Assembly: GCA_003225315.1 (NCBI GenBank)
Contig: QHZD01000027.1
Span: 1-64,000 of the forward strand
Reading direction: 5' to 3'
Length of the DNA stretch: 64,000 nt
Source of the DNA: Acidobacteriota bacterium
GTDB taxonomy: Bacteria; Acidobacteriota; Terriglobia; Acidiferrales; UBA7541
The position numbers and the translations under genes are program-made. Numbering within the stretch: the first letter of the stretch is position 1; each line of letters begins with the position of its first letter. Under the pieces are notes generated by a model. That model did no database searches. It was not told the origin of the DNA and was given only the letters and a program-made list of their open reading frames with translations. This document shows positions 9,928 to 11,833 of this stretch, piece by piece.

Positions 9928-10041
9928 AGAGCGCTTACCTGATTAGCGCCCTCTTCGGTTTCTCTCATTACCAGCACGGGCTCACCGGCATCATCGAGGA
10001 GGGTTCTGACGGGCTGATTTTGGGATTGATGTATCTTGCCT

Positions 10042-10056
10042 GCCGCCGCAACCTCG
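10042..10056 (+). repeat. Target-site duplication, left copy (15 bp)
   Basis: The sequence gccgccgcaacctcg directly abuts the TGTC terminus of the element. An identical copy directly abuts the other end at 11476-11490. The match is perfect and bounded on both sides by the element ends. Confidence 0.93.
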
Positions 10057-11475
10057 TGTCGCTGCAAAATGAGAATGTCCTGTTTGTGCAAAGTAGAAAT
10101 GTCCGCTTTCATGGGTGGCCGAGGGGCCTATGGAAACGGAGCGGATCGCCTTGAGCCAACGAGAACGGGACCGATTACACGTGTTGCATGAGCTGCAGCA
10201 GGGGCGTTTCACGCAGTTTACGGCGGCCCAGCGAATGAAATTAACCGCCCGACAGGTGCGGCGGTTGCTGCTGCGCTTGCGAGAGGAAGGAGACCGGGCG
10301 GTGATGCACGGGTTGCGCGGGCGGCCATCGAATCGGAAGTTCGCTGTTTCCTTCGAGCGCCAGGTTTTGGCTCGCGTGGGTCAGCGCTATGCAGATTTCG
10401 GACCCACGCTGGCCGCCGAGCACTTAGCCAAGGAAGGGTTAGCGCTGAGCCGGGAGACTTTGCGGAAATGGATGAGCAAAGCGGCCTTCTGGCGTCCGCG
10501 CTGCCAGCGGGTGAAAAAGATCCACGTCTGGCGGGAGCGGCGAGCCAGTTTCGGAGAGTTGGTGATGCAGGATAGCTCCCCGTTTCGGTGGTTGGAGGAG
10601 CGTGGCCCGGTCTGTCAGTTGATTGCGGTGATCGATGACGCCACCAGCCGTTTCTATGCCCGGTTCACAGAACACGACACGACGGAGGAGAACTTGCGGA
10701 CTTTCGGGGAATGGGTGCGGCGCTACGGACGCCCTTTGGCGCATTACACCGATAAAAACAGCATCTTCCGGACGTCTGCTCCAGCGCCGCTCGGGGAACA
10801 GTTACGGGGAGAAAAAGCCTGCTCGCATTTCGGACGAGCACTCCGGGAGCTGGGGATCGAATGGATTGCGGCACACAGTCCGCAGGCGAAAGGACGGATC
10901 GAGCGACTGTTCGAAACGCTGCAGGATCGCTTGGTAAAGGAAATGCGTCTGGCGGGGATCGACAGCATCGCTGCCGCGAACCATTTTTTAGAGATGCGTT
11001 TTCTTCCGGAGTGGGAAGAGCGTTTCACGGTGGCACCTCGCAGGCCGCGCAACGCGCACCGACGGTTGGATCGAGACCAGCGGCTGGAGGAAATTCTCAG
11101 CGTGCGCGTGGAGCGCTAGGTAGCCGACGATCACACCATCAGCTGGGATGGCAACCGCTGGGGCGTGCCACGTGAAGAAGTCTGCGCGGGTCTGCGGGGT
11201 GCGCAAGTGGAAATCGAACGACGACTGGATGGTTCGCACTGGCTACGCTTCCGTGGCCGCTATCTCCGCCTGCGCCATTGCCCCGCATCCCTGCGACCGT
11301 CCGCAAGTCCTTCCGGCCTACGGCCTCCAGGACTCGCGGAACAAATAGCGAGACCCAAAAACAAAATCAAAATCAAACCAAAATACCATGTCCCTACTAA
11401 GCACCCCTGGAGGAAACCGTGGAACCGGACATTTCTATCTTGCGAAAAACCGGACATTTCTACTTTGCGTTGACA
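10057..11475 (+). mobile_element. Complete IS1202/ISNCY-like insertion sequence, 1419 bp
   Basis: The ends are defined by flanking perfect 15-bp duplications. The termini are inverted repeats starting TGTC; the outer 24 bases match at most positions, with the strongest block AATGTCC. Each terminus carries a second inner copy of the GTAGAAATGTCCG-type motif about 20-25 bases further in, so each end has two likely transposase-binding sites. A single transposase gene fills the interior. IS1202-family elements are known for long target duplications; from memory, a subgroup makes about 15-17 bp, which fits. Confidence 0.92.
10130..11473 (+). pseudogene. IS1202/ISNCY-type DDE transposase with in-frame TAG
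   Basis: The frame opens at the ATG at 10130, which has GAGGGG just upstream; a GTG at 10115 is possible. Residues 1-60 are a helix-turn-helix region. The DDE core shows Asp148 (VMQDSSPF), the VIDDATS strand (169-170), Asp208 (YTDKNS) and Glu258 (QAKGRIER). After 329 codons a TAG at 11117-11119 interrupts the frame. Beyond it the same frame encodes VADDHTISWDGNRW and a GLRGAQVEIERRLDGS segment, the normal C-terminal beta domain of this family. The likely ancestral codon is CAG or AAG. The frame ends at a TGA at 11471, inside the right terminal repeat. Unless the amber codon is suppressed, the element is probably inactive. Confidence 0.88.
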
Positions 11476-11490
11476 GCCGCCGCAACCTCG
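11476..11490 (+). repeat. Target-site duplication, right copy (15 bp)
   Basis: This is identical to 10042-10056 and begins at the first base after the ACA terminus of the element. Confidence 0.93.
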
Positions 11491-11833
11491 CCGTTCCCAT
11501 TATCGCCCACGGAGTCTGCGATACCATCGATATCGCTCTGCTTTTCTTGGGCAAGTATCCCGGCTTGTAGGGATGTGAGATCTCCAACCTTCTCCTCTCA
11601 CCCTTTCCCGCCCGGTGCTTCGCTCTGGGATCTTTCCGTCACCCCCGTTCTTGTTTCCAGTCCACGGACGAGTCCTCGAGAATCGTTTTCATCCACCCAC
11701 GGAAAGACAAGTGGTGTAGAATTCACGCCGTTTTCGATGGAATCCGGCAATCAACTTACGTCGGGTTCTGATAATTCGGTGGGTACCCAATAACGGCGGT
11801 CCCGCGACGAACAACGCCCGAAAGTGGAGGAAA

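Follow-up and report, generated by a model that had tools for sequence, protein, structure and literature searches.

The question raised by this locus is what interrupts a CPBP protease gene remnant in an Acidobacteriota contig, exactly where it entered, and whether the element responsible is of a kind that chooses its targets. We refer to the whole stretch of 64,000 nucleotides that was analyzed as the window. The insertion lies between two 15-base copies of GCCGCCGCAACCTCG (10042–10056 and 11476–11490), which are identical at 15/15 positions, differ in the base on either side, and abut exactly at TGT and ACA an element of 1,419 bp (10057–11475, forward strand); the chance of a 15-base match flush with one given TGT...ACA pair is about 1e-9. 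In a relative of the same genus (locus L010, G017:C120) the CPBP gene is uninterrupted, with an open frame of 246 aa, and the window flanks, joined through one copy, give a 201-nt alignment to it that is 94% identical and has no gap, the join included. The empty site shares 13 of the 15 duplicated bases, the first two being different. The ungapped alignment identifies the 15-bp repeat as a target site duplication and delimits the element to 10057–11475; as a sequence comparison, the empty site proves both the insertion point and the nature of the repeat, and fixes the duplication at exactly 15 bp, with 15–18 bp in relatives. A sequence-only reading of this DNA had described a perfect 15-bp duplication, flanks that join into one gene, and a precise insertion point with both element ends, and had looked to an element-free relative for comparison; all of this is borne out by the single uninterrupted site in G017. 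It had also called the insertion sequence complete, which holds for the two ends, both of which are present, but not for the transposase gene, which carries an in-frame stop.

The interrupted gene codes for an Rce1-like CPBP protease. Its 5' part (9938–10056, forward strand) ends in the left 15-bp copy and is 95% identical in DNA over 119 nt to the intact G017 gene; the 3' part (11476–11570, forward strand) runs to the stop codon and is 93% identical over 95 nt. Homology to the intact gene starts at about 9930–9938, with about 178 of the 246 residues absent, and the gene was already a C-terminal stub before the insertion. The Pfam model PF02517 matches the 5' part with an E value of 0.0059 and a score of 17.3 bits, short of the model's cut-off (22.4). 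Two other loci, L018 (G000:C40) and L014 (G013:C184), each in a different genome, retain an 80-bp piece from the 3' end of this CPBP gene; these fragments were considered as a second insertion at the same target and rejected, as no insertion sequence was seen adjoining them.

The element matches the IS1202-family model and has the termini TGT...ACA with imperfect terminal repeats of about 26 bp, the left (10057–10082, forward) being identical to the right (11450–11475, reverse) at 18 of 26 positions; the tip of the right repeat reads TTGACA outwards. Inner repeats D1, I1 and I2, putative transposase-binding sites, are present inside the ends. One near the left end (10088–10109, forward) is 95% complementary to 11447–11468 and is probably a second transposase-binding site, a role suggested by the portions of PMC10132070 that describe such repeats, and one near the right end (11423–11444, reverse) is a 91% direct repeat of 11448–11469. 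The transposase frame (10115–11119, forward) begins with GTG and extends for 334 aa to an in-frame TAG (11117–11119, forward) that is a sense codon in close relatives; in the two closest relatives the frames are open and of 447 and 446 aa. The truncated frame keeps the helix-turn-helix region and the D, D and E residues. The stop thus spares the catalytic residues and cuts off about a quarter of the protein, the remainder of the frame running on to the next stop (11120–11473, forward), and because of this loss the window copy is probably inactive and immobile. That remainder corresponds to the strand-rich part of an AlphaFold2 model of the transposase from relative L005, a model with a mean pLDDT of 49.7 that is too poor for a fold and shows just this strand-rich C-terminal region. 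As regards the TnsB-like fold with a beta barrel that is expected of the IS1202 family, a profile search of solved structures gave TnsB at an E value of 0.0091, over the N-terminal part only. The element is the sole DNA match to itself in its own genome, where the only other match to the family model, at 26.5 bits, falls below the cut-off.

Membership of an IS1202-like group, which the sequence-only reading had proposed from the length of the duplication, agrees with several features. The transposase scores 362.9 bits against the NCBIfam model ISNCY_2 (NF033594; cut-off 250), a model that matches 13 of 13 members of set A1 and 6 of 6 of set A3, and 88.3 bits against the IS481 model (cut-off 224). 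E269 and Q276 are invariant in set A1, and the window protein reads IERLFETLQD, with Q seven residues after the catalytic E; the termini, the inner repeats and the duplication length also fit. In a tree of 82 transposases, built by a quick method with SH-aLRT support only, the window protein groups with L191, L189, L190 and L198 (support 100), within a clade of 16 rows (support 100) that all come from the window's phylum and among which the five duplications found are of 15 or 16 bp. All 11 rows labelled 5 bp fall in one separate clade of 31 rows (support 99) with the window outside it, and the 13 rows labelled 15–17 bp lie outside the 5-bp clade, spread over several branches rather than forming one clade. 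The tree agrees with the published split by duplication length, and these sequence relationships support placing the window element in the long-duplication part of the family.

Harmer et al. 2023 (PMC10132070) describe dif-like targets for members with 3–5 bp duplications and, as far as the main text goes, no target for the longer ones; the word 'promoter' is absent from that main text. Sites were called by their duplications alone, whatever motif lay beside them: a TGT...ACA element had to stand between two copies of a sequence, either identical over 14 bp or more, or 16 bp long with a single mismatch. Of 39 sites called, L216 was removed before counting, being of the short-duplication clade with a 24-bp match containing one mismatch and poor end repeats. 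The final set of 38 comprises 37 sites from the window's phylum, in genomes that are mostly in many contigs, and L117 from outside it. L117 scores 468 bits with the short-duplication model and 425 with the long one, yet it falls outside the 5-bp clade and was kept. Duplications are of 15 bp at eight sites, 16 bp at 19, 17 bp at ten and 18 bp at one.

At 30 of these 38 sites a TTG abuts the duplication (offset 0) on at least one side, with no other offset from -14 to +39 reaching more than four; at the rate of TTG measured in the flanks, this count has a binomial probability of about 8e-37. TTGAC stands at offset 0 in 14 of 38 sites and at any other offset at most once. The abutting TTG is followed by TA---T 17 or 18 bp on at 22 of the 38 sites, the spacing being 17 bp in 16 and 18 bp in six of 31 sides. 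A bipartite consensus score of at least 9 is reached at 21/38 sites; no control offset among those tried reached it. The promoter stands on the right at 13 sites, on the left at 16, on both sides at one and on neither at eight; three of the eight without TTG at offset 0 (L226, L241 and L285) keep -10-like hexamers. At L117, the only proven site outside the phylum sample, the hexamer is TTGACT. As a pattern in the aligned sites, the register of the TTG is exact, the -10 hexamer lies mostly 17–18 bp on, and the distal cut would be variable: the duplication edge at the -35 hexamer is fixed, and the distal edge varies by up to three bases. The exact TTG register together with the -10 spacing leads us to conclude that long-duplication elements of this kind appear to insert one duplication length upstream of sigma70 promoters.

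The pattern emerged with the first 14 distinct long duplications, six of which have TTGAC directly after the right copy. It is present in 11 of these 14 discovery sites and in 19 of the 24 sites called afterwards, some of which lay in loci already collected at discovery; of further sites in loci added later, three of three agree (L321, L324 and L329), with L374, which matches the short-duplication model, left out of the count. Information content aligned on the centers of the first 14 duplications showed no strong column, the best one being reached by 59% of null draws and the sum over columns by 1.4%; it was at the edges of the duplications, in the flanks, that the signal became visible. Counts of downstream frames, 25 of 29 on the promoter side and 21 of 29 on the other, do not separate the two sides.

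A wider count of flanks covered elements whose ends are clear (17 or more of 26 positions matching) and for which the long model gives the higher score, a set that includes distant viral elements with doubtful ends. At a distance of 15–18 bp, TTGAC is present outside the right end of 19 of 89 elements and outside the left end of 11 of 86, compared with five and six for the remaining offsets between 0 and 40 combined. Among 26 elements assigned to the short model, TTGAC is found at 15–18 bp on none of the right flanks and on one of the left; that single match, at 17, belongs to L117, whose own duplication is 17 bp long, and one more left TTGAC lies at 27. Plasmid elements were taken as an outside test, and the short-duplication model gives the higher score for every one of their frames but one; the exception is one of two frames in L373, an element with indistinct ends.

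Many copies lack a duplication. Of the long-group copies, 53 have clear ends, score at least 380 bits and retain both flanks; a duplication is present in 20 of these and missing from 33 (e.g. L191, L190, L007 and L202). The 33 duplication-less copies include 15 with TTGAC 15–18 bp from one end, 20 with TTG there, and 13 with neither. The copies that lack a duplication and keep the TTG or TTGAC would be accounted for if recombination or a deletion had removed one flank, and deletions next to copies, or recombination of one copy with another, may be common. ISEsa1 is reported to lack a duplication, and its copies here share contexts and have ends that are not clearly delimited. Short element fragments in other genomes were considered as MITEs and set aside; they are largely copies cut by contig ends (e.g. 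L076, L077, L080 and L083), and none proved to be an internal deletion.

The abundance of TTG beside the duplications could be accounted for in other ways. Insertion might be untargeted, with selection keeping only those copies that do no harm because they lie between genes, near promoters; copies that land in genes are often lost, and intergenic sites are rich in promoters. Selection of this sort cannot fix an exact cut register such as the concentration of TTG at offset 0, and it leaves the absence of the pattern from the short-duplication group unaccounted for, such that we find this explanation scarcely credible. A reading that deserves more weight, although we still think it unlikely, is that the transposase recognizes a -35-like hexamer directly as a pseudo-end, and that promoters are hit merely because they contain it. 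The right terminus reads TTGACA outwards in 21 of the 38 proven elements, as it does in the window (11470–11475), and the left terminus does so in none of the 38. Against this reading stands the -10 hexamer, which at the insertion sites is found (as TA---T) after 8 of 14 TTGAC and 14 of 17 other TTG hexamers. These are far above the local rates in the same loci, where with insertion sites excluded TA---T at N16–18 follows 7 of 259 TTGAC and 54 of 4,600 TTG (15 of 273 and 76 of 4,631 with insertion sites counted). At insertion sites the -10 hexamer is at least as frequent where the -35 hexamer is imperfect, the difference between TTGAC and other TTG hexamers being not significant (Fisher p 0.23).

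The window copy itself lies at a site that does not resemble a promoter. The hexamers abutting the duplication read CCGTTC on the right and, reversed, AGGCAA on the left, with no motif and a score of 5 that is reached by 43% of control positions; by eye, no promoter boxes are present at the G017 empty site and no dif-like site at the window insertion, which lies in a coding remnant. The window might accordingly be seen on its own as an ordinary, dying copy at a random site and nothing more, a view favored by its single copy, its in-frame stop and the missing promoter signature. This is a fair description of the window copy, but its nearest relatives (L004, L005, L009, L022 and others) target precisely, and as a full account we judge it improbable. 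The ends of L004, L005 and L006 are similar to those of the window element, and L005 and L006 have exact duplications of their own (16 and 15 bp), with none found in the other four of the six relatives scanned. Of the 16 flanks of the window and its nearest kin (a set that excludes L041, with its short flank), 14 have TTG at a distance of exactly 15 or 16 bp outwards from the left end, the misses being the window and L084, and several flanks read TTGACT, N17, TAAGAT or similar. A scan with the branch's left-end sequence, allowing two substitutions, found 29 distinct flanks, including two whose length does not permit a judgement; 19 of the 29 have TTG at 15 or 16 bp from that end. The 14 of 16 left flanks with TTG indicate that in the window's branch the left end faces the promoter, and by comparison with these kin the window copy is an off-target insertion of a targeting element.

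Our preferred reading, which we hold with considerable confidence, is that the window contains a long-duplication IS1202-family copy inserted off-target in a CPBP stub, and that such elements select sigma70 promoters. The element would have entered the stub by DDE transposition, duplicating 15 bp, and the transposase stop would have been acquired on arrival or after it. At a typical target, the pattern suggests that the cut on one strand falls right at the upstream border of the -35 hexamer and that on the other strand 15–18 bp further upstream, so that the duplicated stretch would separate the element from an intact promoter directed away from it; this promoter would face the left end in the window's nearest kin and either end elsewhere. 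The simplest reading, we infer, is that the transposase meets the RNA polymerase holoenzyme at its upstream edge, recognizing promoter-bound polymerase, perhaps through sigma region 4 or alpha, rather than bare DNA, as has been proposed for TnGBS.

Several known systems resemble this one in part. The closest are the long-duplication members of the family (IS1202, ISTde1, ISCARN53/62/63 and ISHahy13), which in the account of PMC10132070 share with the window element a DDE transposase with Q seven residues after the E, TGT...ACA termini, imperfect repeats and an inner binding site, and range from 1,327 to 1,747 bp, compared with 1,419 bp here. Their duplications are of 16–28 bp in the table of that paper, and one ISfinder range given in PMC10045372 is 15–17 bp, compared with 15 bp in the window. 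They differ in that PMC10132070, in its main text, gives them no target, whereas the elements here would have sigma70 promoters as targets and the window copy carries a transposase stop. The ISAjo2 short-duplication group is of the same family and likewise inserts at a fixed distance from the site of a host protein, XerC/D at dif, but has 3–5 bp duplications and dif-like sites, unlike the 15–18 bp duplications and promoters of the window's kind. The IS481 and IS481EU elements, as described in part of PMC10045372, have related transposases, TG...CA ends and some duplications of about 15 bp, but the window transposase lies below the IS481 cut-off.

Promoter targeting of similar geometry is known in the Mutator superfamily. 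TnGBS, ISLre2 and part of ISKra4 (p-MULT 3 and 4) insert 15–17 bp upstream of the sigmaA -35 hexamer, with 8–9 bp repeats, a proposed contact with RNA polymerase and, in p-MULT 3, a right end that mostly faces the promoter, according to the sections of Guerillot et al. 2014 (PMC3942029) on these groups. Those elements differ in having a transposase of another superfamily, a terminal C and direct repeats of 8–9 bp, and, unlike in them, the duplication here fills the entire gap to the -35 hexamer. The window element cannot be placed in p-MULT 3 or 4, having 15-bp repeats and TGT termini, and no IS256/Mutator-type model is among the NCBIfam matches listed for it and its relatives. Among the matches listed in a search of titles and abstract openings of open-licence papers, we found no report of promoter targets for the IS1202 family.

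The promoter register would answer the question of the target for this branch of the family, for which none is reported in the main text of PMC10132070, and would explain the odd length of the duplication as the distance from the -35 edge to the distal cut. It would also add a case of promoter-directed insertion outside the Mutator superfamily of transposases, and suggests a simple system of one protein in which the choice of target is set by the host transcription machinery; copies of such elements may mark promoters in unannotated genomes. A broader reading, to which we give even chances, is that the whole IS1202 family lands beside DNA-bound host proteins, XerC/D at dif for the short branch and promoter-bound holoenzyme for the long members, with the duplication length being the distance from the polymerase edge to the distal cut. 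Under the same broad reading, promoter targeting at 15–17 bp would have arisen separately in two DDE superfamilies with no relation to each other, since in both the geometry is dictated by the polymerase's upstream edge.

Some observations were made on elements further afield. L374, on Vibrio harveyi plasmid pvh3, and L375, on pvh2, perhaps the products of one insertion event, are IS1202-family elements of the short model with a 16-bp duplication that, by eye, abuts a dif-like site; if L374 is real, a long duplication and dif targeting can be combined. A scan of viral contigs with L054 gave no relative, and 26 of the 29 matches in the phage collection are from Vibrio. In many Vibrio cyclitrophicus inovirus records, including PQ189311 (L107), an IS1202-like match stops 16–25 bp short of the record's end, which is what one would expect of a phage that integrates at dif next to a dif-targeting insertion sequence.
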